Positions 24,398 through 61,548 of a stretch of DNA of 64,000 nt are shown one piece after another (the first letter of the stretch is position 1; the number at the start of each line of letters is the position of its first letter). The DNA comes from Aliiglaciecola sp. M165 (lineage in GTDB: Bacteria > Pseudomonadota > Gammaproteobacteria > Enterobacterales > Alteromonadaceae): assembly GCF_007197995.1 (NCBI RefSeq), contig NZ_VKKH01000001.1, positions 1 through 64,000 on the forward strand. The letters are read 5' to 3'. The translations under genes and the position numbers were made by a program. The notes under the pieces were generated by a model. That model searched no databases. It saw only the letters and a list, made by a program, of their open reading frames with translations, and had not been told where the DNA came from.

Positions 24398-24426
24398 CGA
24401 TTATCTTACTGTAACAAGTTTGTCAT
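24398..24426 (+). promoter_or_regulatory. Candidate PhoB box upstream of the duplicated lipoprotein gene
   Basis: CTGTAAC (24409-24415), 4 nt, then TTGTCAT (24420-24426), an 11-bp direct repeat matching CTGTCAT with 4-bp AT-rich spacers. A weaker unit CGATTAT occupies 24398-24404 in phase. The two main units match the E. coli PhoB-box consensus at about 14 of 18 positions. It lies 66 bp upstream of the start codon. PhoB binding is inference. Confidence 0.55.
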
Positions 24427-24491
24427 TTTTGTTAGTTACTTTGCTCGCGTTTTTAAATCCAATAATCATAAAATCGCATGTGGAGAGCACG

Positions 24492-27224
24492 ATGGAACTC
24501 AAAAATGTTTTTAGGGCAAGCGCTGTAGCTACGGCCATTGCACTAGCAGGTTGTGGCGGTGATATTAATATCACAGAAGGCAATATTGACAATAGTCAGA
24601 CAATCAATAACCCACCCACTCAAACTCCAACGCCTACTCCAACACCAAGCGAACCACTCCCAGGCGAGTTCAGTTCTTCGTTAACTCAAGCGGTTACCCA
24701 AGCCTTGGGTCGCAGTGTCACGGTACAGGTTTTATCTGGCACAATCACTGAAGACACGACACTAACAACAGACGCCTTTTACGCATTGTCAGGTTCGGTA
24801 TTTGTCGGCGGTGACAATGAGAATTCAGCAGTTTTGACCGTTGAACCCGGTGTTGTGATATTTGGTCAAAGTGGCAGTGATGCAATGGTTGTGAGTCGTG
24901 GTTCCAGATTAGAAGCGGCTGGTACTGCTTCTCAGCCAATCATAATGACATCTTTGCAAGATGTGGTTGGCGAGCCAATTTCTCCTGGACAATGGGGCGG
25001 TTTGGTACTCCTTGGCAATGCGCCCAGCAACAAATGTCCGACAGACGGTACACCTTGTGCTCGCGAAGTTGAGGGCGTAGCTGACGCTTTCTACGGCGGT
25101 ACGGACACAGAAGACAACTCGGGCACACTGCAATACGTTGTAGTAAAAAACTCTGGATTTGAAGTCGAACCAGGTAACGAATTAAATGGCATTACCTTCG
25201 GTGGTGTAGGTTCTGGCACTACAGTTGATCATATCCAGGTTCACAACAGTTCTGATGATGGCGTGGAGTTTTTTGGCGGCAATGTTGACGTCAAATACCT
25301 GGTGCTAACCAACAACCAAGACGATAGTATTGACTGGGACCACGGCTACCAAGGTCGTATGCAGCACATTTATGTGCAACACAATCCGAACGCTTCTGAT
25401 GCAAACCGCATCATCGAAGCAGACAACGATGGAAGCAACTTGGATGCTAGCCCTAAATCAAACCCGACCCTAGTTAACATGACTGCAATAGGTAATAACT
25501 TTGCTGCAGACGAAGATCCGTCTGAAGGGATTTACCTGCGTGAAGGTACCGGTGGTCAGTTTTACAATATTGTCGTCACTGGTCCATCTGAAATGGGTGA
25601 ATGTTTCGAAGTAGAGGGTAATGCTGTTTCTCAAGCTAACTTGGGGGACGGAACCATTTTAATGGAAAACTCCGCTTTCGCCTGTACCAATGAAGAAAAC
25701 TTCAAAAACGGCGACACCGATGTCGATTTGGAAGCATGGTTCTTAGGCCAGACAGGTAACTTTATCAGCGACGCCCCTATGATTATGTCTAATGGACAAC
25801 CCATGGCGGGCTCTCCATTACTGGGCGCAGGTCAAGATACGTCTAATACGGTAGATGGATTCTTCGATGCAACAAATTATGTAGGTGCTTTCGATGGTTC
25901 TTCTGATTGGCGAGAAGGCTGGGCATTTGGCTACGGTGGTGGCGAAGTGACCGCGCAAGCAGAACAAGTAGGCTGCCCTACTGGCACTTCTTCGATTTTG
26001 TCTGTCGATGGATCCACAACTACCTGTGAAATTCCTGCCGGCACTATCACAGCCGATACTACATTAACTGCTGGCAATATATACGCCCTATCGGGTGTAA
26101 CCTTCGTCGGCGGCGACAATGAAAACAGCGCAACCTTAACTATTGAGCCAGGTGTCACTATTTATGGTCGCAGCGCTAGCGATGCGTTGGTTGTAAGCCG
26201 AGGTTCACAAATTATGGCAGAAGGTACTGCCGCGGCACCCATCACATTTACATCCACTCAAGATGTTACAGGTGAAGCAACCGGCCCAGGTCAATGGGGC
26301 GGCGTAGTGTTGTTGGGCAATGCTCAAAGCAACAAATGCCCGACAGACGGTACACCGTGCGCACGTGAAGTTGAAGGTGTCTCTGGTGCGTTTTATGGCG
26401 GCACAAACGATGAAGACAACTCAGGTGTGCTTCGCTACGTAGTCGTCAAACATGGCGGATTTGAAGTCGAGCCAGGCAATGAATTAAACGGTATCACATT
26501 TGGTGGTGTTGGCTCAGGGACAACCGTTGAATACATTCAAGTTCACCAGAACTCAGACGATGGAATCGAATTCTTCGGTGGTACGGTTAACTTAAAATAT
26601 GTCGTCCTAACGGCCAACCAGGATGACAGTGTCGATTGGGATCACGGCTATCGCGGCAAGATGCAGTATGTATTGGTTCAACACGCTAACGACGACAGCG
26701 ATGCGAACCGCCTAATTGAAGCCGACAATGATGGAAGCAACCTGGCTGCAGAGCCAAAATCTAATCCGACAATTGCAAACTTCACTGGTATTGGAAATAA
26801 CTTCAATCCAGAAGACGACCCGTCTGAAGGTATCTACTTACGTGAAGGTACAGGCGCGCAATTGTATAACCTGATTGTTACCGGCCCGGCATTGATGGGT
26901 GAGTGTTTTGAAGTAGAAGGTAATGCAGTGTCTCAAGCAAACCTTGGTGATGGCACCATCTCCATGACCAACGCCGTATTTGCATGTGAAAACAGCGAAA
27001 ACTTTAAAAACGCTGACGGCGACGTTGACCTTGAAGCATGGTTCCTCGGACAAAACGGCAACTCAATTGCTGCAAATCGTGCAGCGGTATTGAATGGCAT
27101 CTTCACAACGACGGATGCTGCGGCCCGTGACTTCACTGGCGATACATTCTTCGACAACGTTGATTTCATTGGAGCGGTTGAAGAAGGCAATGACTGGACT
27201 GCTGGCTGGACTGTAGGTCTGTAA
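24492..27224 (+). CDS. Large duplicated surface lipoprotein, predicted beta-helix
   Basis: 910 residues from the ATG at 24492, which has GGAG upstream and begins a lipoprotein signal with lipobox LAGC (Cys near residue 18). A Thr/Pro-rich linker (TPTPTPTPSEP) follows. The rest is two homologous halves of about 400 residues (about 83-500 and 517-910), each with FVGGDNENSA-LT-EPGV, GQWGG-VLLGNA-SNKCPTDGTPCAREVEGV, DDG-EFFGG, a DWDHGY motif and GECFEVEGNAVSQANLGDGT. Repeated Gly/Asn turns and short strands suggest a right-handed beta-helix; conserved Cys and Asp-rich motifs may bind a metal or ligand. Enzymatic activity is unknown. The downstream TonB-dependent receptor suggests a receptor-lipoprotein pair at the outer membrane. 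Confidence 0.7.
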   Translation: MELKNVFRASAVATAIALAGCGGDINITEGNIDNSQTINNPPTQTPTPTPTPSEPLPGEFSSSLTQAVTQALGRSVTVQVLSGTITEDTTLTTDAFYALSGSVFVGGDNENSAVLTVEPGVVIFGQSGSDAMVVSRGSRLEAAGTASQPIIMTSLQDVVGEPISPGQWGGLVLLGNAPSNKCPTDGTPCAREVEGVADAFYGGTDTEDNSGTLQYVVVKNSGFEVEPGNELNGITFGGVGSGTTVDHIQVHNSSDDGVEFFGGNVDVKYLVLTNNQDDSIDWDHGYQGRMQHIYVQHNPNASDANRIIEADNDGSNLDASPKSNPTLVNMTAIGNNFAADEDPSEGIYLREGTGGQFYNIVVTGPSEMGECFEVEGNAVSQANLGDGTILMENSAFACTNEENFKNGDTDVDLEAWFLGQTGNFISDAPMIMSNGQPMAGSPLLGAGQDTSNTVDGFFDATNYVGAFDGSSDWREGWAFGYGGGEVTAQAEQVGCPTGTSSILSVDGSTTTCEIPAGTITADTTLTAGNIYALSGVTFVGGDNENSATLTIEPGVTIYGRSASDALVVSRGSQIMAEGTAAAPITFTSTQDVTGEATGPGQWGGVVLLGNAQSNKCPTDGTPCAREVEGVSGAFYGGTNDEDNSGVLRYVVVKHGGFEVEPGNELNGITFGGVGSGTTVEYIQVHQNSDDGIEFFGGTVNLKYVVLTANQDDSVDWDHGYRGKMQYVLVQHANDDSDANRLIEADNDGSNLAAEPKSNPTIANFTGIGNNFNPEDDPSEGIYLREGTGAQLYNLIVTGPALMGECFEVEGNAVSQANLGDGTISMTNAVFACENSENFKNADGDVDLEAWFLGQNGNSIAANRAAVLNGIFTTTDAAARDFTGDTFFDNVDFIGAVEEGNDWTAGWTVGL
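24738..27214 (+). repeat. Tandem intragenic duplication in the lipoprotein gene
   Basis: Two in-frame copies beginning near 24738 and 26039 (period about 1.3 kb, about 434 residues). Protein identity is high throughout, and blocks such as SNKCPTDGTPCAREVEGV and GNAVSQANLGDGTI are identical or nearly so, while many third codon positions differ. That points to an old duplication kept under protein-level selection rather than a fresh one. Confidence 0.85.
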
Positions 27225-27248
27225 AGACTTGCAATGATGGAGCCAGAG

Positions 27249-27283
27249 CAAAGTGCGTTGGGTGTCCAACGCACTTTGTTTTA
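27249..27283 (+). terminator. Rho-independent terminator after the lipoprotein gene
   Basis: A perfect 13-bp stem (CAAAGTGCGTTGG / CCAACGCACTTTG, 4-nt loop; 27249-27278) followed by TTTTATC, 24 bp after the stop. It separates the lipoprotein transcript from the receptor gene, so the receptor needs readthrough or its own promoter. Confidence 0.85.
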
Positions 27284-27301
27284 TCAGACAGTTATTTGTT
27301 A

Positions 27302-27328
27302 AAAGGTCCAAGCAAACCCAGGACCTTT
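27302..27328 (+). other. Hairpin in the leader of the receptor gene
   Basis: An 8-bp inverted repeat (AAAGGTCC / GGACCTTT) with an 11-nt A/C-rich loop, 25 bp upstream of the receptor ATG and 16 bp before its Shine-Dalgarno (GAGG). No T-run follows, so it is not a typical terminator. It could be an operator or a leader structure; nothing decides between these. Confidence 0.4.
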
Positions 27329-27353
27329 AATAAGCATTCTAATGAGGTTAAAA

Positions 27354-30020
27354 ATGAATAAGCTAGCCAAAAGGTTTTCTGTTGCAAACCTGTCCTTGGC
27401 AATTATTGCAGGGTTGAGCGCACAATCATCATATGTTTTGGCTCAACAAACAGGTGAAGAAGAAAACGTCATTGAAGAGGTCGTCGCTACCGGCACGCGT
27501 TTGAAAGGGACAGCTACGGCGGTACTTCAAGAAAGAAAAGAACAAGCGTTTGTCGCTGACATCCTTGGCGCCGACCAAATATCCAGAACGGGAGACAGCG
27601 ATGCCGCCTCGGCACTGCGCAGGGTAACAGGTTTAACCTTGGTTGATGGCAAATTCATCTACGTGCGCGGCTTGGGAGAGCGATATTCAAGTACGCAATT
27701 AAACGGCATGACTGTACCAAGTCCCGATCCAACCCGCAGTGTCATCCCGTTGGATTTGTTTCCAGCTGAGATTATAGAAAGCTTGTCTGTTCAAAAAGCC
27801 TACTCACCTTCTATGCCTGCTTCATTTGGTGGCGGAAATGTCGATATTCGTCTGAAAACCATTCCAAATGATTTTTTATTCAAGGTTTCGGGAGGACTTG
27901 GAGTCAATAGCAACAACTTTGATGATGGCTGGCACTATGACGGCGGAAGTGACGATTTTTATGGAAGAGACGATGGAACGCGCGAAATGCCAAGTGCACT
28001 GCGCGACGTGTTTGATCGACAACTGACCATCGAGCAGTTAACTATCGCACAACAGCAAGAAGTGGCCCTTGGCTTGAATAGAAATTACGACCCAATCAAA
28101 GAGGCAGTTGATCCCGATGTGAGCTTCGACATTTCGGTGGGAGACTACTACGACATTAACAATGATTGGCGAGTAGGATTTCTAGCGACGCTTGGCTATG
28201 ACAATTCGTGGCAAGTGTCTGACGAGTTTCAAGGCAACCAATTTAGCTCAGATGGCGAAGGTGGATGGACTTTGCAGTCTGGTTGGCCAGTGGGCGAATC
28301 CAATGAGCATTCTGTCCAATGGTCTGGGTTATTAAATTTGGGTCTGAAATATACCAACTACCACAATATCGACGTAAGCTTGCTAACGCTAAACGATACA
28401 CGTGACCAGATCCGTGAACGTTATGGTTTTAATGCCAATACCAGTACCGACGAAGGTCAGTTTATCCGTTCTTACGATCTATTGTACGAAGAACGCCATA
28501 TGCGTACTGGGCAAATAAAGGGCTCTCACACTCTGCCAGATTTGTGGTTTATGGGCGTCGATTGGAAATATTCTGAATCTCGCAGTTTCCGTCGAGCGCC
28601 GGGCAATATTACCACTGGGTTTTCTTTCCTTGATGCTGATGGAGATCGTATATTTGACCGAGGTGTTGAATCAATCTCCTTAATCAGAGGGCGTACAGGC
28701 CAAGCAGACTATACCTTCCAGCGTTTAGACGATATTGTCAAGAATTGGGGGGGCAATGTTTCATTACCTGTGTCAGTGGAGAAGTGGGATTTCGAATTTA
28801 AAGCCGGCGTCGATTTTGTGCAAAAAGCGCGAGTGGGTGAAAACCGTGCCATTGGTTTTCTAACCAACAGTTTTACAGCTGAGGAACTCGCTGGGTTTAA
28901 TCTCAATGACATACTTACCGACGAATTGATCTCTGGTTTTGAAAGCAACCTTAACCAAAATTTACTGCGCCAATCTGCTGCACCAGGAGATGATTACACC
29001 TCAGCACAAATTACCGATGCAGCGTATTTTGAATTTGATGCTTTTTTCAATAATCAGTGGCGGTTATCCGGTGGTGTAAGATGGGAAGAGTTCAAACAAG
29101 CGATTTTGGACTCCAGTTCGCGTAACAGCAATAACCCGCCAGAGCGTAATTTTGAAGATCTCACATTTCAAGAGGACGATTTTTATCCTGCGTTAGCATT
29201 CACCTATATCCCTGATGACAGTATGCAATACCGTTTCAGTTATGCAGAAACGGTGGTTCGCCCAGACTTGAGGGAAATTTCTGATGCCCTTTACATCGAC
29301 CCACTTACAGAATTCCCTATTCGAGGAACGCCAGGTTTAAGGCCTACAAGTATCAAACATTACGACTTTCGTTGGGAGTGGTATCTTGATCAAGGCGACA
29401 ACTTATCCGTCGCACTGTTCTACAAAGATATGCTTGACCCAATTGAGGGATTCCAGACAGAGCAAGGTGATTCCGCTCCTCGGACAAGGATTGCTAACGG
29501 TGAAAGCGCAGAGGTATATGGTATAGAAGTTGAATTTCTTAAAAGTTTAGGCTTTTTGGGGAACGATTATACAAGTACTTGGAATGATTTGTTTTTCTCT
29601 GGAAACGTCACCTTAAGTGATTCGGAAACCACCTTTGATCGTGAAAAAATCACTGAACAAACTGGAGTTAACCCGGATTTTGTTAATGATGTAAGGCGTT
29701 TGACCGGTCACTCTGAATACGTAGTAAATATGCAACTGGGTTACGATGCGCCGAATGGTGAGCATTCTGCGACCTTGGTTTACAACGTGTTTGGAGAGCG
29801 CATCATTATCCCTGGAATAGGGTTACAAGACGACGCATTTGAACAGCCGTTTCATTCGTTGGATTTTGTTTATACCTACTATCCAAACTTTAACAGCACG
29901 GTGAAATTTAAGTTAGACAATATCCTTGATCAAACCAAAGAAATTGAGTTTGAAGGTGTATTGATTCGCTCAGAAACCCGAGGGATTGGTGCAAGCCTAA
30001 GTTACTCCTACGAGTTCTAG
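27354..30020 (+). CDS. TonB-dependent outer-membrane receptor
   Basis: 888 residues from the ATG at 27354, which has GAGG six bases upstream (an ATG at 27342 overlaps that site). The signal peptide ends near LAQQ. The TonB-box region ENVIEEVVATGTRL is followed by a plug domain (IYVRGLGERYSSTQLNGM, then a Gly-rich FGGGNVDI) and a long 22-strand barrel ending in the aromatic SYSYEF. The ligand is not predictable. It sits between the duplicated lipoprotein and a dedicated TonB2 operon, all on the same strand, so the three are likely functional partners. Confidence 0.92.
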   Translation: MNKLAKRFSVANLSLAIIAGLSAQSSYVLAQQTGEEENVIEEVVATGTRLKGTATAVLQERKEQAFVADILGADQISRTGDSDAASALRRVTGLTLVDGKFIYVRGLGERYSSTQLNGMTVPSPDPTRSVIPLDLFPAEIIESLSVQKAYSPSMPASFGGGNVDIRLKTIPNDFLFKVSGGLGVNSNNFDDGWHYDGGSDDFYGRDDGTREMPSALRDVFDRQLTIEQLTIAQQQEVALGLNRNYDPIKEAVDPDVSFDISVGDYYDINNDWRVGFLATLGYDNSWQVSDEFQGNQFSSDGEGGWTLQSGWPVGESNEHSVQWSGLLNLGLKYTNYHNIDVSLLTLNDTRDQIRERYGFNANTSTDEGQFIRSYDLLYEERHMRTGQIKGSHTLPDLWFMGVDWKYSESRSFRRAPGNITTGFSFLDADGDRIFDRGVESISLIRGRTGQADYTFQRLDDIVKNWGGNVSLPVSVEKWDFEFKAGVDFVQKARVGENRAIGFLTNSFTAEELAGFNLNDILTDELISGFESNLNQNLLRQSAAPGDDYTSAQITDAAYFEFDAFFNNQWRLSGGVRWEEFKQAILDSSSRNSNNPPERNFEDLTFQEDDFYPALAFTYIPDDSMQYRFSYAETVVRPDLREISDALYIDPLTEFPIRGTPGLRPTSIKHYDFRWEWYLDQGDNLSVALFYKDMLDPIEGFQTEQGDSAPRTRIANGESAEVYGIEVEFLKSLGFLGNDYTSTWNDLFFSGNVTLSDSETTFDREKITEQTGVNPDFVNDVRRLTGHSEYVVNMQLGYDAPNGEHSATLVYNVFGERIIIPGIGLQDDAFEQPFHSLDFVYTYYPNFNSTVKFKLDNILDQTKEIEFEGVLIRSETRGIGASLSYSYEF

Positions 30021-30044
30021 GCTATTCGCACGCCCCATAAAGCA

Positions 30045-30075
30045 CCAGAGCCGCCTTTGCGGCTCTGGCTCTTTT
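30045..30075 (+). terminator. Rho-independent terminator of the receptor gene
   Basis: A perfect 10-bp stem (CCAGAGCCGC / GCGGCTCTGG, 4-nt loop; 30045-30068) followed by CTCTTTTAG, 24 bp after the stop. Confidence 0.85.
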
Positions 30076-30087
30076 AGTGTTGCAGTA

Positions 30088-30116
30088 TTGTCATGTTTCT
30101 GCAATCAAACTGTCAT
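30088..30116 (+). promoter_or_regulatory. Candidate PhoB box upstream of the TonB2 operon
   Basis: Three units in exact 11-bp phase: TTGTCAT (30088-30094), CTGCAAT (30099-30105) and CTGTCAT (30110-30116), with A/T-rich 4-bp spacers (GTTT, CAAA). The last unit is a perfect half-site of the CTGTCAT consensus. A CATTAT -10-like hexamer lies at 30123-30128, the usual arrangement where PhoB replaces the -35. It is 78 bp upstream of the DUF3450 start. Confidence 0.6.
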
Positions 30117-30193
30117 ACAAGGTCATTATCCTGCACGCAACTTTGAAAGGCGGCTATGTGTCAGCCTCAATTCGAGAGTCAGGACCTAATTGT

Positions 30194-30961
30194 ATGAAGT
30201 TTTTTAGACAAGCAGCTGTAGCAGTAACAGTGGGCACTTTGCTTACCTCCACACTCTCAGCCCAGGAAGATAAAGATTTAAGGCCCGTGGTCAACGCTGC
30301 CGCTGAAATTAATCAGTCAGCAGAGCAATCACAGACAAAAATCAATCAAATAACCGACCAGATTGAAGACAAACTTCAACAATTTAAAACCCTCAATAAA
30401 GAAACTGATGGCTTGCGCGTTTACAACGAACAACTGCGCAAACAAATCGCCAATCAGCAACAAGAGATGCGTGACATAAACAGCGCTATCGACGAAGTCA
30501 GCGTGGTGGAGCGCCAAATAACGCCGTTAATGCTGAAGATGATTGCTGGGCTCGAACAATTCATCACATTGGATGTGCCGTTTTTACCTGAAGAACGGGC
30601 CCAACGTGTCGCAGATTTAAAAGAAATGATGGACCGAGCTGACGTTGCACCCTCAGAAAAGTTTCGCCGTGTGATGGAAGCCTATCAAGTGGAAATGGAC
30701 TACGGACGAACGTTGGAGGCCTATGCAGGCTTGCATACGATTGAAGGCCAAGAACGCAATGTTGATTTTCTTAGAATTGGTCGAACAGCGCTTATTTACC
30801 AAACACGCGATGGTAGCTTACAAGGCAATTGGAATAAAACGACTGGTCAATGGGAAGTATTGCCTAGCAGCTATCGTTCTCAAGTCACTAAAGGGCTGAG
30901 AATGGCTAAAAAGCAAATGGCGCCAGACCTGCTAATGCTACCTATTGCGATGACAGAGTGA
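30194..30961 (+). CDS. DUF3450 periplasmic coiled-coil protein of the TonB2 system
   Basis: 255 residues from the ATG at 30194 (MKFFRQAAVAVTVGTLLTSTLSAQ signal peptide; the open frame extends further upstream). After the signal, about residues 30-105 form a Gln/Glu/Lys-rich coiled coil, then a conserved C-terminal part ending in a DGSLQGNWNKTTGQWEVLPSSY-like region. In Vibrio the homologue is the first gene of the TonB2 cluster, ahead of ttpC. It is probably an accessory that links the energising complex to its clients; the exact role is unknown. Confidence 0.85.
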   Translation: MKFFRQAAVAVTVGTLLTSTLSAQEDKDLRPVVNAAAEINQSAEQSQTKINQITDQIEDKLQQFKTLNKETDGLRVYNEQLRKQIANQQQEMRDINSAIDEVSVVERQITPLMLKMIAGLEQFITLDVPFLPEERAQRVADLKEMMDRADVAPSEKFRRVMEAYQVEMDYGRTLEAYAGLHTIEGQERNVDFLRIGRTALIYQTRDGSLQGNWNKTTGQWEVLPSSYRSQVTKGLRMAKKQMAPDLLMLPIAMTE

Positions 30962-30965
30962 TTAA

Positions 30966-32348
30966 GTGAATAAAATGATGAACAAACTAACCCAACTAAT
31001 TTTTGTATTTGTCACGTCAATCGCCATGACGTCTAATCTTGTTGCTCAAGAAAAGGCACTGGATCTAGATGCTTTGTTAAAGCAGCTTGAGCAAGGCCAG
31101 TTTCAGCAAAATCAGCAAAATGTCGAACGTGAACGTGAATTTGCACAAAAGCGCTCAGAACAAGACCAAATGCTTCGTGATGCCTCAAGACAAAGAGACA
31201 ATGAATTAGCCTTGTCTTCGCAACTTGAAACTCAATACGAAGAAAACGAATTTAAAATTGCTGATCTCAAATCTGCGGTGGATACCCGGTTAGGTTCGCT
31301 TAAAGAGTTATTTGGCGCGCTACAGCAAACTGCAGGTGATACCAAAAACAAGTTTTTCGGTTCGGTAGTGTCGGCACAAATCCCAGGTCGCGCTCAGTTT
31401 CTAGATGAACTCGCTCAATCAATGGGTAAAAGCAGCAAGCTTGCCTCGATTGAAGAAATCGAGCGAGTTTGGTTTGAATTGCAACGTGAAATGACCGAAT
31501 CGGGCAAAGTAACCCGATTCACCACAGATGTTGTTGAAGCTGGTGGCGCAAAAGTAAACAAAGAAGTTGTTCGCGTCGGGTCTTTTGCACTTATCGCCGA
31601 TGGCAAGTACCTTGATTACGAAGGTGCAACGAACTCTGTGTTTGAATTGGTTAGACAACCAGCGGATCGCTTTACAAATAGTGCCGCAAATTTGCAAAAC
31701 TCAAGCGGCGATGTCATTCAATTTGGTCTTGATCCAACGGGCGGTACTATTATGCGTTTGTTGGTTAACGCACCGAATCTTGAAGAGCGCATCCATCAAG
31801 GTGATCTTGTTGGCTATATAATCATAGCTGTCGGCGCAATAGGGATCTTTGTCGCTGTGTGGCGCTTTATCGTGCTCACGAGTGTGAGCAATAAAGTTAG
31901 ACGCCAACTGAAATCCGATACTTTTAAAGATGACAATCCGCTCGGCCGAGTGATGCTGGTGAAGGACAAGTATCCACATGCAGATACCGAAGCACTGGAA
32001 TTGCATCTGACAGAAGCTATTTTGGGCGAAGTGCCTAAGTTGGGTCGCTTCTTAACCTTGGTCAAAATGATTGCGGTCGTAGCGCCATTGGGCGGGTTGC
32101 TTGGAACGGTAACCGGAATGATCGTGACCTTCCAACAAATAACCTTATTTGGTACAGGCGACCCTAAAATCATGGCGGGTGGCATATCCTCCGCGCTGAT
32201 TACCACTGTTTTGGGATTGGTTGTTGCTATCCCCACTACCTTGATGTTCGCACTGCTTAATACACAAAGTAAAAACATTATTTATATCTTGCAGGAACAA
32301 GCCGCAGGGGTCATTGCCGAGCGTGCCGAAAGGTTAGAGAAGGCATAA
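30966..32348 (+). CDS. ttpC: TtpC-like long MotA/TolQ/ExbB-family protein
   Basis: 460 residues from a GTG at 30966, 4 bp after the upstream stop; ATGs at 30975 and 30978 are equally possible. The signal/anchor ends near VAQ, then comes a periplasmic coiled-coil domain (about 25-120) and a linker. A C-terminal ExbB-like three-helix proton-channel region (about 285-450) carries PLGGLLGTVTGMIVTF. In Vibrio TtpC is required for TonB2-dependent transport and joins ExbB2-ExbD2-TonB2. It sits where expected, between DUF3450 and ExbB. Confidence 0.88.
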   Translation: MNKMMNKLTQLIFVFVTSIAMTSNLVAQEKALDLDALLKQLEQGQFQQNQQNVEREREFAQKRSEQDQMLRDASRQRDNELALSSQLETQYEENEFKIADLKSAVDTRLGSLKELFGALQQTAGDTKNKFFGSVVSAQIPGRAQFLDELAQSMGKSSKLASIEEIERVWFELQREMTESGKVTRFTTDVVEAGGAKVNKEVVRVGSFALIADGKYLDYEGATNSVFELVRQPADRFTNSAANLQNSSGDVIQFGLDPTGGTIMRLLVNAPNLEERIHQGDLVGYIIIAVGAIGIFVAVWRFIVLTSVSNKVRRQLKSDTFKDDNPLGRVMLVKDKYPHADTEALELHLTEAILGEVPKLGRFLTLVKMIAVVAPLGGLLGTVTGMIVTFQQITLFGTGDPKIMAGGISSALITTVLGLVVAIPTTLMFALLNTQSKNIIYILQEQAAGVIAERAERLEKA

Positions 32349-32354
32349 CCAATC

Positions 32355-32882
32355 ATGATGCTTGAGCTATTCGAATCCCTTCGAGATTTTACTGAAACAG
32401 GCGGAATTGTGCTGCTCTTTATTGGCGGCCTAATTTTCACAATGTGGCTATTAATCCTTGAGCGGATCATTTATGTCAACAGCGGCCACCGACAGTTCAA
32501 AAAACACGTCATTGCTACATGGCAAGCAAGAACTGACCGAGCCTCCTGGAATGCAGAACAAATTCGCCAGGCAATGGTATCCCGAGTGAGCCTAAAGCTG
32601 AAATACAGCCTGCCTATTATTCAGGCTTTGGTTGCTCTATGCCCCTTGCTGGGACTAATGGGTACTGTGACAGGCATGATTCAGGTTTTTGATGTCATGG
32701 CACTTTCAGGTGGTGGTAATGCACGTTCAATGGCTGCTGGCGTATCCAAGGCGACGATTCCAACGATGGCCGGAATGGTGGGCGCATTGTCCGGAGTTTT
32801 TGCCTCGACTTGGCTAACTCGAACGGCAAAAACCGAACGTACACATTTAGAAGACGCATTAATTATGCAGCGTCAGGGCTAA
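32355..32882 (+). CDS. exbB: ExbB-type proton channel subunit
   Basis: 175 residues with three membrane helices (about 15-35, 90-115 and 135-155). It carries the conserved channel motif ALCPLLGLMGTVTGMIQVF and the Ala/Gly-rich third helix. With ExbD it forms the inner-membrane proton-driven motor that energises TonB. It starts 6 bp after the ttpC-like gene and lies 25 bp before exbD. Confidence 0.93.
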   Translation: MMLELFESLRDFTETGGIVLLFIGGLIFTMWLLILERIIYVNSGHRQFKKHVIATWQARTDRASWNAEQIRQAMVSRVSLKLKYSLPIIQALVALCPLLGLMGTVTGMIQVFDVMALSGGGNARSMAAGVSKATIPTMAGMVGALSGVFASTWLTRTAKTERTHLEDALIMQRQG

Positions 32883-32907
32883 GTCCTGAGGAACTAGAGA
32901 GAATAAA

Positions 32908-33315
32908 ATGAAACAGCACTTTCAGAATTTAATTGATGAAGAAGAATCGAACATCGACATGACGCCGATGTTGGACGTGGTATTTATCATGCTGATCTTT
33001 TTTATTGTGACGGCATCCTTTGTCAAAGAAGCGGGCATCGATGTCAATCGACCTGATGCGGCCACCGCAGTCAAAAAGGACCGTGCCAATATTTTGGTTG
33101 CGATCAGCGACAAAGGCGAAATCTGGATCAATAAACGTCGTGTCGACAAACGTGCCGTTCAAGCAAATATTGAGCGACTACATGCTGAGAACCCACAAGG
33201 CACAGTCGTCATCCAAGCTGATAGAAAAGCCACAACAGAAACATTGATTGCTGTCATGGATGCCTCTAGGGCAGCAGGCGTATTTGATGTTTCCATCGCT
33301 GCACAAGAGCCTTAA
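32908..33315 (+). CDS. exbD: ExbD-type subunit
   Basis: 135 residues: a short cytoplasmic segment, one membrane helix (about 22-42) with the essential Asp23 in MTPMLDVVFIML, and a periplasmic domain. This Asp corresponds to the proton-carrying residue of ExbD/TolR. It sits directly before tonB, with a 3-bp gap. Confidence 0.94.
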   Translation: MKQHFQNLIDEEESNIDMTPMLDVVFIMLIFFIVTASFVKEAGIDVNRPDAATAVKKDRANILVAISDKGEIWINKRRVDKRAVQANIERLHAENPQGTVVIQADRKATTETLIAVMDASRAAGVFDVSIAAQEP

Positions 33316-33318
33316 GCC

Positions 33319-33927
33319 ATGCCGCGTATTTTGATTGCCATTGTATTAGCTGCAGGTGTCACACTGGGCTTGTTCTATTTAATGCAAGCGCTGATTAAAA
33401 GTGGTGACCAGGCGTTGTCAGAGCCATCCAAAGGTAGTGTTTTGGATTTCGTAAGAGTAAAAAAAGACGAAGTTACCGAACAAAAACAGCGCAAACCGCG
33501 AAAGCCCCCTAAGCCAGAGCAACCACCACCTGATATGCCTCAACCTGAAATGGATCTTGCATCTTCTGATCCACTAAGCAGTGGTTATGACTTTGCTGCG
33601 GATGTCGCAGCGGATGTTTCTCTAGAAGGTGGACTAGCCTTGGAGTCGGGTGACGGTGAGTATTTACCCATCGTGAAAGTGTCGCCCGTTTACCCGAGGC
33701 GCGCGTTGTCTAGGGGAATTGAAGGTTATGTCATCGTTGAATTTACTGTGACGAAACAAGGTTCAGTAAGCAATCCAACAGTCATTGAAGCGGAGCCTGC
33801 AGGTATTTTTGAGCAGGCGGCTGTCGATGCGGCATTGAAATTTAAATATAAACCTCGGGTAATAAACGGTGAAGCAGCAGAAGTTGCAGGTGTGCAAAAC
33901 CGTATTTCTTTTCAAATAGATGGTTAA
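33319..33927 (+). CDS. tonB: TonB2-type energy transducer
   Basis: 202 residues: an N-terminal anchor helix (about 3-25), a Lys/Pro-rich spacer (KPRKPPKPEQPPPDMPQPE, about 59-77) and a C-terminal TonB domain with SPVYPRRALSRGIEGYVIVEF and FKYKPR. It is short, like Vibrio TonB2, and would contact the TonB box of the neighbouring receptor. It sits between exbD and the TPR gene. Confidence 0.93.
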   Translation: MPRILIAIVLAAGVTLGLFYLMQALIKSGDQALSEPSKGSVLDFVRVKKDEVTEQKQRKPRKPPKPEQPPPDMPQPEMDLASSDPLSSGYDFAADVAADVSLEGGLALESGDGEYLPIVKVSPVYPRRALSRGIEGYVIVEFTVTKQGSVSNPTVIEAEPAGIFEQAAVDAALKFKYKPRVINGEAAEVAGVQNRISFQIDG

Positions 33928-33937
33928 AGGTGATCAA

Positions 33938-35263
33938 ATGAAACGTTTTGCTGCGATTTCTCAAAAAACTATGTCTTTGCTGTTAGCTTTCTCGATGGCA
34001 ATTTCAGGTAGTTTGTTGACAACAACCAACGCCGTTGCGGAAGTCCAAAAAGAACAGAAAACTAAGCGCACACCAGCGTTACGCTCAAAAGTCTACGACC
34101 AACTCGCACGAGCACAGGCCCTCGCTGATATGGACAAAATTGACGAAGCGTTAGACTCACTTAAAGCGGTGGAACGAAAGTCTTCTTCAATGAACAGCTA
34201 CGAGTTAGCGATGATGTATAACTTCTTTGGTTTTATCTATTACAACGCTGAAGATTATGACAATGCGATCGCCTCTTTTGAAAAAGTAGTCGCTCAGCAG
34301 CCCATCCCGGAATCCTTTGAAAAAAGCACGTTATTTAGTCTGTCTCAGCTGCATATGATGCGTGGAAACTACGACAAGACTGTGAGTCATTTGGAAAAAT
34401 GGGAAGCCTTGCATGATGGAGAAATACCCGCCAAAAACCTTGTATTAAAGGCACAGGCGATGTACCAGAAAAAAGACTACGTTGCGGCTTCGGGATTTAT
34501 TAACGCGGCCATTGAGCAACAGGAGTCAAGCGAACTTGGTTTCAAGGTAGAAGAAAGTTGGTATGTGTTGCAGCGTGCCGTTTATTACGAGTTGAAAAAC
34601 CCCAAAAAAGTGACCGAAGTGCTGGTCAAAATGGTTAAACAGTTCAACAAGCCAGAGTACTGGGTGCAGCTGTCAGGCATGTACGGTGAATTGGGTCTGG
34701 AAAAAGAACAGCTAGCAATTCTTGAATCAGCGTATCAACAAGGTTTTGTAAACAAAGCCAATGATTTATTTAACTTAGCACAGTTATATTACTACCATCA
34801 GGCCCCGTTTAAAGCAGCCAAAATAATCGAACAGGCGATTGATCATGGTGTCTTGGACAACGACCTGCGCAATCTAAAATTTTTAGCGCAAAGTTGGTCT
34901 CTGGCAAAGGAAGATGAAAAAGCGGTGCCGGTAATGTTGGCAGCGGCACAAATGTCTTCCGACGGTGAACTCGATATGCAACTCGCGCAGATTTTCCTCA
35001 ATATGGAAAAATATGACGACGCCATAGAGGCGTCACAACGGGCGATAGACAAAGGTGACTTGCGTAACCCTGGAAACGCGCATTTAATTCTCGGAATGGC
35101 TTTGTTTAACAAGCAACGTTTTGTGGCATCGCTAACACAACTGGCCAAAGCAGAAGAACACCAGAAAACTGAAGCCATGGCCAAACGCTGGAGTCAGTTT
35201 GTAAAAAATGAACAAGAATACTTTAGCAATGTGCTGGGCCGCGCAACACAGGTTGGGTCATAG
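33938..35263 (+). CDS. TPR-repeat periplasmic protein of the TonB2 operon
   Basis: 441 residues from the ATG at 33938, which has AAGGTG upstream (the frame opens earlier, overlapping tonB by 8 bp). Signal peptide (about 1-34, ending NAVA), then tetratricopeptide repeats across about 50-430, with typical A-x-x-x-x-A/Y-F patterns such as YNFFGFIYYNAEDYDNAIASFEKVV. Vibrio TonB2 clusters end in a similar TPR protein. It probably scaffolds partner proteins in the periplasm. Confidence 0.87.
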   Translation: MKRFAAISQKTMSLLLAFSMAISGSLLTTTNAVAEVQKEQKTKRTPALRSKVYDQLARAQALADMDKIDEALDSLKAVERKSSSMNSYELAMMYNFFGFIYYNAEDYDNAIASFEKVVAQQPIPESFEKSTLFSLSQLHMMRGNYDKTVSHLEKWEALHDGEIPAKNLVLKAQAMYQKKDYVAASGFINAAIEQQESSELGFKVEESWYVLQRAVYYELKNPKKVTEVLVKMVKQFNKPEYWVQLSGMYGELGLEKEQLAILESAYQQGFVNKANDLFNLAQLYYYHQAPFKAAKIIEQAIDHGVLDNDLRNLKFLAQSWSLAKEDEKAVPVMLAAAQMSSDGELDMQLAQIFLNMEKYDDAIEASQRAIDKGDLRNPGNAHLILGMALFNKQRFVASLTQLAKAEEHQKTEAMAKRWSQFVKNEQEYFSNVLGRATQVGS

Positions 35264-37471: not shown

Positions 37472-38287
37472 TTATTGCTGCCATAAATTAAGCACACCAT
37501 CTTCCATGTGCATCGGAATTGGTAATTCTTCGTATTGTTTTAACCAATGTCGCGTAAGCTGAGTGAATTCCTCAGAATGCTTAAATCTAAGGGCTGCACT
37601 TTTTAATCTGTCAGCTAACTGTTCATCAGTTTCCGCTTTGGACAACACCAGATAACTGAACATTCGCTCGTACATAAACACGCGCTTGAGCTCTTTGCAA
37701 TTATTTGTCGATTTTTCGCAAAAAAATTGCATACCGGCATCGGATAAAAATATCGCTTCTGACTGTCCATTGACCACCGAGTCGACCGCCTCCTGCCAGC
37801 TTTCATAGGGTCTGATATTTGTCATCTTGGCGTTTAGCAGGATTTTGTGTCGCACGTCATTATTAAGGACCGCGATAGACGAAATATTCTTTAGTTCATC
37901 AAGATGCTGATAGTGGTCTTTGGTCGCGCTGTGCCCATACACAGCAAATACATTGGCAGTTAAAGGCGTTATCCAGTGATAATAATTTTCGCGCTCAGGC
38001 GTTCTGGCTAAAGCGAATACCAATACATTGGATTTTACTCGCGCTTCTCGCTCGACCCGCTCCCATGGCGCCGCAAGAATTTGCTGCTTTATGTTAGCTT
38101 CACTAAGCACGCCATTGACCACATCCACCAGCATACCACTTAACTGACGTTTATCATCTTGCACAACAAAAGGCGCTTCAGGGTTAGTCAGCACCCAGAA
38201 ATCAGGCGTGTTCGGCACTTGCGCAAAAACGCGTTGTGCTAACACGACCAATATGAAAAATAGTGTGGATCCGTTACGGAAACTCAT
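37472..38287 (-). CDS. Orphan solute-binding-like protein (tandem copy B)
   Basis: 271 residues from the ATG at 38285-38287, with GGAAG upstream; it overlaps the upstream gene by 14 bp. Signal peptide MSFRNGSTLFFILVVLAQRVFA, then a family 3 solute-binding-like body (LSGMLVDVVNGVL, LAAPWERVEREAR, VLVFALARTPERENYYHW). Key segments (WAR/WER, ARTE/ARTP, WLT/WIT) parallel those of the adjacent gene, so the two are paralogues. No permease gene is nearby. Confidence 0.7.
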   Translation of the reverse strand: MSFRNGSTLFFILVVLAQRVFAQVPNTPDFWVLTNPEAPFVVQDDKRQLSGMLVDVVNGVLSEANIKQQILAAPWERVEREARVKSNVLVFALARTPERENYYHWITPLTANVFAVYGHSATKDHYQHLDELKNISSIAVLNNDVRHKILLNAKMTNIRPYESWQEAVDSVVNGQSEAIFLSDAGMQFFCEKSTNNCKELKRVFMYERMFSYLVLSKAETDEQLADRLKSAALRFKHSEEFTQLTRHWLKQYEELPIPMHMEDGVLNLWQQ

Positions 38288-39110
38288 TCTTAACTTCCAC
38301 CATACCATTGGTTAAAACCAATGACTTTGATAAACCTTCGCGCCCAGACAAGTAGCGTGCGGCCATGAGGCGAAACTCTTCAGACTCTTTCACCATTTGT
38401 GCGGCCGTTTTTAAGCTATCGGCGACGACATCATTAACTTTGGTTTTTGCCATTGCAATATAACTCTGGGTAACTTGATACGTCAGTACCTTTTTGAGAG
38501 AACGACAGTTCAGACTTGCTTGTAAACAAGTTAACGCAAGACCCATATCCGACAAAAAAACGCTATCGACCCTTCCTCGAATAAGAGTTTTAACAGCTTG
38601 TTCCCACGAGTTAAATGTCACCATGTTTTGAACTTTATTATCGATAAGAATTTGTTGACGGTAGTCGTCCCTTAACACCGCGATATAACCAAATTCGTCG
38701 AGTAATTTAAGCGACGTAAGTGAAATTTGCGGCGGATCATTCGCAAAGGCTGCTACCTGATTTTGTGAAATCGCAGTGAGCCAATGAAAATCTTCTTCCC
38801 TTGCCTCGGTGCGAGCCAACCCCAAAATCATAATCGGCACGTCCCCTTCCTTCTTCGCCATAATACGAGCCCAAGGCATCGCAGATATCGAATACCGCAT
38901 TCGTGCCTGATCAGCAATCAATTTAGCCAGTTCTACGGAGTAACCTGAAGGTTTTCCATTACGATTACTTTCACTAAAAAAAGGCAGAGGATTGGTCAGA
39001 ATGATCAATTCTTGTTCTGCTGCTCGCCCGTGATTGGAATATAGAAGACCTAAACCGATAACGGCGGCCGCAAAGTTTGCCCCGTATCTTAGCGCGACTG
39101 TAATAATCAT
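38274..39110 (-). CDS. Orphan solute-binding-like protein (tandem copy A)
   Basis: 278 residues from the ATG at 39108-39110 with AAAGG at about 9 bp; a TTG at 39119 is less likely. Signal segment (residues about 8-30, ending GRAA). The body contains NGKPSGYSVELAKLIADQARM, ISAMPWARIMAKKEG, ILGLARTEAREEDFHWLT and LIRGRVDSVFLSDMG, the pattern of family 3 binding proteins. It starts 33 bp after the pyrC stop, and is a paralogue of the next gene downstream. Confidence 0.7.
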   Translation of the reverse strand: MIITVALRYGANFAAAVIGLGLLYSNHGRAAEQELIILTNPLPFFSESNRNGKPSGYSVELAKLIADQARMRYSISAMPWARIMAKKEGDVPIMILGLARTEAREEDFHWLTAISQNQVAAFANDPPQISLTSLKLLDEFGYIAVLRDDYRQQILIDNKVQNMVTFNSWEQAVKTLIRGRVDSVFLSDMGLALTCLQASLNCRSLKKVLTYQVTQSYIAMAKTKVNDVVADSLKTAAQMVKESEEFRLMAARYLSGREGLSKSLVLTNGMVEVKNEFP

Positions 39111-39142
39111 ACCCAACAACCTTTTTTTACCGAGAAAAACCG

Positions 39143-59722: not shown

Positions 59723-61450
59723 TTAATTACTGTGCGTCGCACTTAACTCAGTAAAGCGAACTTCAAAGTTGCCACCTGAATCTTTGTCAGCCTGAGCGTA
59801 ATTCCCAGCTTTGAAGTAATAAACATGATTCAGCCAATCAGTGCTCATGCCGCCTTCGCCAAACCGAACAGAACGTGTTTCAGTCTGGTTGCCCAAGGTA
59901 ACAGAGATGGTGACCGTATCATCCTCAAGTTCAATAATGTAGCTCCACTCATCCGTTCCAGGAATGAGCCCAAAATCTAAGCTGAAAGAGCCTCCACTGC
60001 TGGCGCTTTTATTGATGATCGCTCGCACGTCTTTGTTGGGGCCGTCCCACTGCAACTTCACTAGGGCATAAGAGGATTCTTTTGCATGGATCTGGCCCAC
60101 CACAGTTTGCGGATCACTGGCTTCATAATCGGTCACTCTGAGGGTGCCCTTCAAAACGTGTTTCCCGCTTGGAGCCCAGTTTGCCATGCCATCTGATTCA
60201 CAAGGACTCCAATTATAAAGCTCGCGTAGCTCGGAACGCACGTAGCTGGTGTTAGTTGTCACTGCACCACCAGTTAAAGGCGTTACAAACACCATTGCAC
60301 CATCTGAGCCAGTATAAAAGTAATCGGAGTCTTCGAACCCCTCGTCTAGTCCATTGCCCGTATACAAGCTATTGGAGCATTGGTCCGGCTGAATTTCGGC
60401 TGCGGCTGAGCCGCCACTGCCAAAGTAGTCGTTTTTGCTGGTAGGTAAGGTGATTTTCCACTGGCTCAAATCGAAGTTGCCCGATGGCGGTAAGCTAGGG
60501 TCTAAGTTTCCGCCTCCAGCAGATTGGATATCAATCCAATTGATGTTTATTCTGCCGTCAACAACATAGAATCGTAATGTATGGCTCCCGGCACTCAAGT
60601 TCCCCAATGAAACAGTTTCGGTGTAATAGAGTTGCCAGTTTGTAGTGTTATCAACAGTGACATTTCCAGTCACATTATTGCCATCAACCAAGAGCGAAAA
60701 GCGTTTCCCTGAATCAGGTGTGGCTAAACGAACTTTAGCCTCGTAGTTACCTGCTGTCGCGACGTTGATGTCATATTCCAGCCATTCCCCTGCGGCGGTC
60801 CAGCCAACGTTGTAACCACAATTACTGTCTCCACACGGCTGAATATCAACGTCTTCGCTTGTTCTATAAACGCCTCCAACATTCCCGTTGCTTGTGTCGT
60901 AATAGCGGTCAAAGTCTTCGGCCTCTATGCGACCAGGAACTGCTACACCAGAGCTTCCGCCATAAATTTTCACTTCTGTAATGTTTGTCCATGAGGAACC
61001 CGCATCATTTTCGAATACCTTTATCCGCACTTGTTGCGCGTTGATGTCAGTGACATCATAGGTTTCGATATTATTGGTGTTTCCAGAACTCCAACCGCTG
61101 TAGATTTTGGTCCAGGTGCTATCAGTGCTATTTGGACGTGTCCGTATTTCAAATCGATGTGCCCTGCTGTCGCCAACTCCCCATGCAATACCAACCTCAG
61201 TAATAGCTTTAGCGCTACCTAGATCAGCAATCAAGTTCGAAGTACCATTGCTACTCAAACTATTGTTGGCCGCCCAACGCGACGACCAGGCTGTACTGCC
61301 ATCAAAGGCTTTTGATGGTGGGAAACTGCTATGAGAATTCCCATAGTCACTCGAAGAAACAACATTGTACTCAATGGCATTGGCTGAAAACGCCGCCAGA
61401 AAACATGTACTGATACCGGCTAATGCGCTCCAATATTTGATATTTTTCAT
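59723..61450 (-). CDS. Secreted PL7 alginate lyase with two carbohydrate-binding domains
   Basis: 575 residues from the ATG at 61448-61450, preceded by TAGGA (a TTG six codons earlier is less likely). The signal peptide ends FSANA. An F5/8 type C (CBM32-like) domain (about 25-170) is followed by a CBM6-like domain (about 178-315, IEAEDFD, GYNVGWTAAGEWLEYDI, INWIDIQ) and a PL7 catalytic domain (about 325-575). PL7 hallmarks are RSELRE (from Arg405), VVGQIH and YYFKAGNYAQ. The QIH form is usually linked to polyG or polyMG activity. Two GntR-type palindromes lie upstream. Confidence 0.93.
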   Translation of the reverse strand: MKNIKYWSALAGISTCFLAAFSANAIEYNVVSSSDYGNSHSSFPPSKAFDGSTAWSSRWAANNSLSSNGTSNLIADLGSAKAITEVGIAWGVGDSRAHRFEIRTRPNSTDSTWTKIYSGWSSGNTNNIETYDVTDINAQQVRIKVFENDAGSSWTNITEVKIYGGSSGVAVPGRIEAEDFDRYYDTSNGNVGGVYRTSEDVDIQPCGDSNCGYNVGWTAAGEWLEYDINVATAGNYEAKVRLATPDSGKRFSLLVDGNNVTGNVTVDNTTNWQLYYTETVSLGNLSAGSHTLRFYVVDGRININWIDIQSAGGGNLDPSLPPSGNFDLSQWKITLPTSKNDYFGSGGSAAAEIQPDQCSNSLYTGNGLDEGFEDSDYFYTGSDGAMVFVTPLTGGAVTTNTSYVRSELRELYNWSPCESDGMANWAPSGKHVLKGTLRVTDYEASDPQTVVGQIHAKESSYALVKLQWDGPNKDVRAIINKSASSGGSFSLDFGLIPGTDEWSYIIELEDDTVTISVTLGNQTETRSVRFGEGGMSTDWLNHVYYFKAGNYAQADKDSGGNFEVRFTELSATHSN

Positions 61451-61548
61451 AAAATTCCTAACGTTCAATCTATGTGTGTGTGATTTCTATTTTTTGAATC
61501 GATACGCAAGTCAAAGACACTTTGAAACAACCTCACAGATCAAGAATT

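Follow-up and report, generated by a model that had tools for sequence, protein, structure and literature searches.

What does a TonB motor serve when it is encoded behind a candidate Pho box, next to a lipoprotein and a TonB-dependent receptor (TBDR)? TonB motors are mostly studied with iron, vitamin and glycan receptors. In a 64,000-nucleotide stretch of the Aliiglaciecola sp. M165 genome (the window), the ORFs place an ElpS-like lipoprotein, a TBDR and a six-gene motor on the + strand between positions 24492 and 35263. The first-pass annotation had described this one-strand gene set with a complete DUF3450-TtpC-ExbB-ExbD-TonB-TPR operon, and we found all of the named genes in their places on the + strand, with Pfam matches for all six operon genes. 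These are TtpB (DUF3450; 30194-30961; PF11932, 308 bits), TtpC (30966-32348), whose C-terminal MotA/TolQ/ExbB domain matches PF01618 at residues 337-443 of 460, ExbB (32355-32882; PF01618, MotA_ExbB), ExbD (32908-33315; PF02472), TonB (33319-33927; PF03544, TonB_C) and the TPR protein TtpD (33935-35263; TPR families). The TBDR (27354-30020; 888 aa) matched PF07715 (Plug) and PF00593 (barrel) above cut-off and carries a TonB-box-like EEVVATG; of 81 TBDR rows, just 19 show a narrow TonB-box pattern.

The lipoprotein (24492-27224; 910 aa, lipobox Cys21) matched no Pfam family and no NCBIfam family above cut-off. Cys21 is invariant in an alignment of 43 sequences, and aligning the two halves of the protein shows shared motifs. 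An AlphaFold model (mean pLDDT 89.3, pTM 0.57) consists of two right-handed beta-helices, consistent with the duplication noted earlier; the relative placing of the two halves is unsure because of the pTM of 0.57. Structure matches (Foldseek, VIA) were spread over many beta-helix families, including PL6 lyases, NosD, epimerases and tailspikes. Because these matches are generic and scattered, no enzyme activity was assigned. The length of the protein ranges from 429 aa in locus L153, through 910 aa in the window, to about 1360 aa in some Alteromonas and Pseudoalteromonas. Conserved acidic residues occur in each half of the 43-sequence alignment and could possibly bind metal. The TBDR was modeled (pLDDT 85.4) as a barrel with a plug, of the ordinary kind. 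Its nearest structural matches are receptors for siderophores, heme and cobalamin (Fiu leads the VIA rows with Z 38.0 and rmsd 4.3 over 570), a likeness to known importers that leans toward import. A sequence search for solved structures gave none for the lipoprotein profile and none for the TBDR.

Upstream of both the lipoprotein and the operon, Pho-box-like repeats with the 11-bp phase described earlier are present and score 22/24 and 20/24, respectively. The 24-point scoring scheme followed the E. coli consensus; the threshold of 20/24 was fixed after a first look at the scores, and controls were run under the same threshold. The lipoprotein box, CTGTAACAAGTTTGTCAT (24409-24426, + strand; CTGTAAC-N4-TTGTCAT), is followed after 10 bp by a predicted -10 hexamer, TACTTT (24437-24442). 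Four half-sites precede ttpB on the + strand (30088-30127), with TTGTCAT starting at 30088, CTGCAAT at 30099, CTGTCAT at 30110 and GGTCATT at 30121. They contain the core box CTGCAATCAAACTGTCAT (30099-30116), and the predicted hexamer TATCCT (30127-30132) lies 10 bp beyond it. The promoter of the genome's own pstS shares this layout (CTGTAACAAAAGTGTCAT, 10 bp, TATACT). Both half-sites plus a -10 element at PhoB spacing, with at most one mismatch, occur 13 times in the 4.61-Mb genome versus 4 times for the reversed pattern, indicating that the phased repeats exceed chance. The lipoprotein, pstS and porin sites are all among the 13, as are several chance-like sites inside coding frames; the ttpB site, with two mismatches, lies outside. 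The genome also encodes PhoB (G000:C24:407416-408093; 362.9 bits, cut-off 296.2), and the window's own contig carries pstS (PstS-type domain) followed by pstC, pstA, pstB and phoU, named by eye from translations. Since a phosphate-selective porin (family match) with a Pho box lies beyond phoU, the genome would possess a second outer-membrane route for phosphate. A search for a Fur box upstream of the motor operon gave no signal (best 11/19, p 0.62 versus shuffles).

The region upstream of the TBDR has no Pho box (best score 16/24). In the gap between the lipoprotein and the TBDR, RNA folding of 27225-27353 (-42.0 kcal/mol) gave a 16-pair hairpin, including G-U pairs, at 27246-27281 (+ strand), which is possibly an attenuator or a 3'-end stabilizer. 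A hairpin finder detected hairpins in 32 of 76 such gaps and missed the window's own, which was revealed by the RNA fold. A terminator-like hairpin (30045-30068, + strand), with a 10-pair stem containing 8 GC pairs and a T-rich tail, lies in the gap between the TBDR and ttpB.

To assess box conservation, the 300 bp preceding each gene of the relatives were scored, with the window itself outside all counts. The Alteromonadales set comprised 50 loci among the matches listed, giving 47 lipoprotein, 48 TBDR and 19 ttpB rows. Three lipoprotein rows (including L108 and L112, whose starts were mispicked) and the ttpB of L111 were omitted. Among these listed matches, boxes of at least 20/24 were found at 38/47 lipoprotein and 15/19 ttpB genes, as against 0/48 TBDRs and 29/378 other genes of the same loci. 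At least 12 of the 29 are phoB, pstS or pstC, and some of the others appeared porin-like by eye. When the half-sites were shifted to 10 or 12 bp apart, 3/47 lipoprotein and 1/19 ttpB rows scored in each case, and the reversed consensus reached 20/24 or more at 6/47 lipoprotein, 1/19 ttpB and 11/378 other genes (again Alteromonadales, among the matches listed). Fisher tests against background gave p 2e-27 for the lipoprotein and p 1e-12 for ttpB, relatedness not being discounted. Rows in these counts are not independent, because the named loci and the remaining genomes overlap in species (for example, L036/L100 and L037/L101, near-identical in the trees). Alignment of the best boxes scoring at least 19 brought out a common -10 element (TANNNT) at 10 bp, with TAaaaT for the lipoprotein (n=42) and TATcCT for ttpB (n=18); the window's TACTTT fits the former and its TATCCT equals the latter. 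The distance from box to start was 71 to 252 bp for the lipoprotein and 73 to 175 bp for ttpB. Thus loss of the boxes in relatives keeping the genes, a point raised by the first-pass annotation, was not seen overall in these Alteromonadales. Elsewhere among the matches listed, the lipoprotein box was found in 3/3 other Gammaproteobacteria, 0/3 SAR86, 4/20 Alphaproteobacteria and 0/3 Bacteroidota/Verrucomicrobia. The window genome's own PstS, used as query for the pst promoters of relatives, returned besides its own gene weak partial matches of 27-32% identity.

In some relatives, gene neighborhoods tie the set to phosphate genes. A TBDR match accompanied the lipoprotein in 74 of the 79 loci found with the lipoprotein profile (among the matches listed); the other five loci stop at the lipoprotein or no more than about 750 bp from it. 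A PhoB is encoded no further than 4 kb from the lipoprotein in 14 of these 79 listed loci and in L039, and all 15 of these proteins match TIGR02154 (E<=1e-85). Left out of this count were low-scoring candidates (L089, the second in L105, L120, L158, L164) and the partial PhoB of L160. A gene of L153 first labeled phoB proved to be OmpR-like and was not counted either. In Alteromonas macleodii, the annotated order is phoB-phoR-PstS-like-(2OG oxygenase)-lipoprotein-TBDR-motor, and two Pseudoalteromonas replicons have the order motor-lipoprotein-TBDR. Type II secretion (gsp) genes adjoin the pair in 15/20 alphaproteobacterial and 2/4 SAR86 loci (among the matches listed), with GspD confirmed in L160 and L161 and gsp genes annotated in Indioceanicola. 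The lipoprotein homologues adjoining gsp genes in Alphaproteobacteria are 37-43% identical to the first sequence of the profile. The window pair has no type II secretion genes beside it, and the motor stands in that place.

Related genomes had been proposed for a search for the boxed lipoprotein-TBDR-motor set, and that search, besides the boxes at lipoprotein and ttpB described above, found sets in distant gammaproteobacteria. The TBDR was compared with 369 Gammaproteobacteria, of which 40 genomes matched, many weakly. Of 21 distant matches above 240 bits, 20 were taken (19 genomes), with G428, a congener of G318, omitted. A lipoprotein homologue is present in every one of the 20 loci; in L241 it lies about 7 kb away, and in L251 it stands behind a pstS-type gene. 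Motor genes are present in 13/20, once together with pst genes, and contig ends truncate some of the loci. The usual order is ttpB-ttpC-exbB-exbD-tonB-TPR-TBDR-lipoprotein, with L245 and L259 deviating. Boxes of at least 20/24 precede the lipoprotein in 7/20 and the first motor gene in 6/11 of these distant loci. In L249, the motor is followed in one direction by TBDR-(361 aa)-pstS-lipoprotein-pstC-pstA-pstB; PstC and PstA pass their cut-offs (267.1 and 220.0), PstS is below its own (144.2 of 206.6) and PstB runs off the end of the sequence. L256 has the order phoB-phoR-lipoprotein-TBDR, with phoU and pst genes further along. Overall, the set has phoB or pst neighbors in a fair number of relatives. 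DUF3450 and motor genes with lipoprotein and TBDR also occur outside Gammaproteobacteria, in L153 (Bdellovibrionota), L158 (Myxococcota), L157 (unclassified) and L151 (Verrucomicrobia); no Pho box was seen upstream of DUF3450 in any of these four.

The motor itself belongs to a distinct lineage that is co-inherited with the pair. When 19 whole genomes were searched with the window TtpB, most held a copy of about 33-37% identity and nine held a copy of at least 53%. Upstream of these nine close (Pho-clade) ttpB genes, a box scored at least 20 in 7/9 and at least 19 in 9/9, as against 1/21 of the other DUF3450 copies in the same genomes. Two Idiomarina, one Aliiglaciecola and two Colwellia with the pair but no motor in the sequence around it carry a close ttpB (50-75%) elsewhere. 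These unlinked copies have a box in 4/5 cases versus 1/15 for other DUF3450 copies, the boxless one being that of Colwellia maritima (17/24). Pooled, the Pho-clade and unlinked ttpB genes are boxed in 11/14 cases versus 2/36 for other copies (Fisher p 7e-7, relatedness not discounted). A fixed rule chose the start codons in these tests; a few choices seem mistaken (L183, L185, L195, L221, L225, L228, L231), so that some upstream windows may be shifted. Among 34 whole genomes (19+15) with the lipoprotein/TBDR locus, a close ttpB (at least 50%) is present in 14 and absent from 20, indicating that the motor is not obligatory for the pair.

In a TtpB tree of 55 rows, a single change separates 31 Pho-adjacent rows (counting G121, actually unlinked, and one row 14 kb away) from 18 TonB2-type rows. 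The latter, typed by identity alone and with no named Vibrio TonB2 included, form a 98/94 clade without the window. With two TonB3-layout Vibrio rows, three further copies and one row from Salinivibrio added, the branch has 94/97, slightly short of a star. Four rows from outside Gammaproteobacteria sit on long branches, and their place in the tree is unsure. The Vibrio TonB2 type assigned earlier to this motor describes its gene order; in this tree the motor appears separate from the rows of TonB2 and TonB3 type. In the TBDR tree (45 rows of known motor status), 24 of the 25 Pho-motor rows fall into one 100/99 clade, with Catenovulum outside; a copy of only 42-46% identity (G040, G044, G082) was taken to mean no Pho motor.

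The lipoprotein and the motor are very probably under phosphate control, and lipoprotein, TBDR and motor are likely to be one functional unit. Induction of both motor and client by phosphate limitation, as first proposed, is supported by conserved boxes at the lipoprotein and ttpB, but not for the TBDR, which has no box. Because it is without a box of its own, and because Le Blastier et al. 2010 (PMC2996285) report constitutive expression (data not shown) of CC0171, the TBDR beside the Caulobacter crescentus lipoprotein ElpS (CC0170), the TBDR may not be strongly induced. We favor, with moderate confidence, a system in which TonB powers the import of phosphate or another phosphorus compound and the lipoprotein does the capturing at the surface. 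When phosphate runs short, PhoB would bind both boxes, switching on an ElpS-kind surface beta-helix lipoprotein and, separately, a private TtpB-TtpC-ExbB-ExbD-TonB-TtpD motor. The lipoprotein would capture a phosphorus source at the cell surface or present it to its partner TBDR, the motor's own TonB would open the TBDR, and the cargo would pass into the periplasm to phosphatases and PstSCAB. Several observations weigh against this reading: boxes are mostly missing outside Gammaproteobacteria, 20 of the 34 genomes have the pair with no close ttpB, gsp genes adjoin the pair in many Alphaproteobacteria, the narrow TonB-box pattern is infrequent, Caulobacter reportedly keeps its alkaline phosphatase activity when elpS is lost, and the porin offers this genome a further phosphate route.

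Movement in the opposite direction is a less probable alternative. The TBDR and TonB motor might bring the ElpS-like lipoprotein to the surface or set it free, and once secreted it would help to mobilize phosphate outside; the motor's place would then be filled in many Alphaproteobacteria by a type II secretion system (T2SS). Such export is unlikely in our estimate. The close lipoprotein-TBDR pairing agrees with it, as does the fact that the neighbor of the pair is in some lineages a TonB motor but elsewhere gspC/D/E/F/G (the listed alphaproteobacterial and SAR86 loci counted above). TonB-dependent protein export is reportedly known from Myxococcus Oar/PopC and was counted in its favor. Caulobacter ElpS, moreover, is described as surface-bound independently of the T2SS and then released (PMC2996285). 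However, the modeled TBDR has the usual plug and barrel and comes closest to importers, and deletion of CC0171 is reported to leave ElpS production on, its localization not being reported there (PMC2996285). The run of L249 with pst genes also points to phosphorus transport and against export.

Phosphate might instead control the import of a cargo that holds no phosphorus, such as a metal, or a glycan from an envelope remodeled at low phosphate, which we consider distinctly improbable. Regulation tells when a system works, not what it carries; the modeled beta-helix domains are similar to NosD and to enzymes acting on glycans, and the acidic residues of each half might serve a metal. Against this, in L249 the set shares a single run of genes with a pstS-family gene, pstC, pstA and pstB, and L251 carries a PstS-family gene as well. 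That this is an iron system of the Vibrio TonB2 kind with phosphate boxes by chance is hardly credible. In its favor, the six-gene order is shared with TonB2 and TonB3 of V. vulnificus (Barnes et al. 2019, PMC6957404). Against it, there is no Fur-box signal at the operon, the tree places the motor away from rows of TonB2 and TonB3 type, and the boxes are kept across genera and at 4/5 unlinked copies.

Phosphorus import stays our preferred reading, and from it a broader and tentative one may be drawn, on which we would not insist. Proteobacteria may possess an active, TonB-powered outer-membrane route for phosphate, a phosphate ester or a phosphate polymer, with the private motor as the outer-membrane counterpart of PstSCAB. 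PhoB would then govern jointly encoded genes for the surface beta-helix lipoprotein, the receptor and the motor, joined in certain lineages by those for the Pst transporter.

Several known systems resemble parts of this set. The phosphate-selective porin OprO/OprP is a Pho-boxed outer-membrane phosphate route like the one in this genome; it is a porin, with no TonB and no lipoprotein. PusCD is said to be a SusCD-like system for phosphate. A SusCD-like importer was considered and rejected here, as the window lipoprotein is not of SusD type (no Pfam match, beta-helix model). In the bipartite receptor TbpA/TbpB, as described in PMC7857515, a surface lipoprotein likewise partners a TBDR, and the window lipoprotein differs in its modeled beta-helices and in having no Pfam family.

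The V. vulnificus TonB2 and TonB3 systems are described as six-gene operons, TtpB-TtpC-ExbB-ExbD-TonB-TtpD, the gene order of the window motor (PMC6957404). According to the same source, TonB3 has a receptor gene at the start of its operon and TonB2 is iron-controlled; the window motor, by contrast, has no Fur-type site. Identity with TonB3 was rejected on the tree and on two TonB3-layout Vibrio loci, whose TtpB proteins show 29% and 34% identity and whose receptors gave no BLASTP match to this TBDR.

In gene arrangement and predicted regulation, the closest likeness is to ElpS and CC0171 of Caulobacter crescentus. As reported in PMC2996285, ElpS is induced by phosphate starvation, anchored at the surface and released with the aid of a T2SS; it gets to the surface independently of that T2SS by a route described as not known. 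The same report notes the co-occurrence of elpS and cc0171. It states that overexpression of elpS raises phosphatase activity while its deletion leaves alkaline phosphatase unchanged, and that deletion of CC0171 does not stop ElpS production. Like that pair, the window pair joins a lipoprotein bearing a lipobox to a neighboring TBDR and is linked to phosphate starvation, by induction for ElpS and by prediction for the window. Its alphaproteobacterial relatives, among the matches listed, mostly have gsp genes beside them, as in Caulobacter. Set against ElpS, the window lipoprotein has 910 aa and two modeled beta-helices, and the pair is followed by a Pho-boxed TonB motor, not by a T2SS. The Caulobacter PhoB regulon is reported to include the T2SS and several TBDRs, thought to import phosphate donors (2024, PMC11208175); the main text of that paper does not contain the term ExbB, and the passages covered mention no dedicated TonB motor. 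In the open-access literature, mostly at the level of titles and the first part of abstracts, no TonB motor behind a Pho box is described, nor is there one in the passages covered of PMC7857515, PMC12844025 and PMC2536512. The first-pass annotation's statement that the combination had no prior description accordingly holds for the motor and not for the pair, which resembles ElpS/CC0171. The new part is the dedicated Pho-controlled motor, and the lipoprotein/TBDR pair is of a known kind. Such a motor would bear on phosphorus uptake through the outer membrane in phosphorus-limited marine bacteria, and its dedication to phosphate starvation would help to explain the roles of ElpS and CC0171, open since the 2010 paper.

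In two distant gammaproteobacterial loci that hold a TonB-dependent receptor, a homologue of the lipoprotein and a pstS-type gene, the interval between the receptor gene and the pstS-type gene is occupied by a gene for a 360-aa protein (L249:6195-7280 and L251:7080-8162 (minus strand)). Searches of Pfam and NCBIfam returned no match for this protein, which we regard as a candidate additional member of the lipoprotein/receptor system. The lipoprotein gene is adjoined by a gene for an ankyrin-repeat protein in two distant loci, one from Bdellovibrionota (L153:11337-12143) and one unclassified (L157:11282-12046), and in Alteromonas macleodii a 2OG-Fe(II) oxygenase gene (L208:2986-3777) separates it from a PstS-like gene.

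Within the window, two neighboring genes on the minus strand (37472-39119) encode SBP_bac_3-type periplasmic proteins; no adjoining ABC transporter gene was noticed in the window's ORF list. Also on the minus strand, 59723-61468 and 62477-63985 encode alginate lyase (PF08787) with CBM-like domains and a TonB-dependent receptor barrel, the barrel being located close to the window end.

Scanning the organism's own genome for the Pho pattern (two half-sites and a -10 element at PhoB spacing) revealed a Pho-box-like site belonging to the gene for a phosphate-selective porin (PF07396; L273:9322-10680, at about 303 kb of contig C1), located beyond phoU. The pattern occurs with zero mismatches at a single site genome-wide (C24:437266, in stretch L260), preceding the gene for a functionally uncharacterized protein that is predicted to be secreted.
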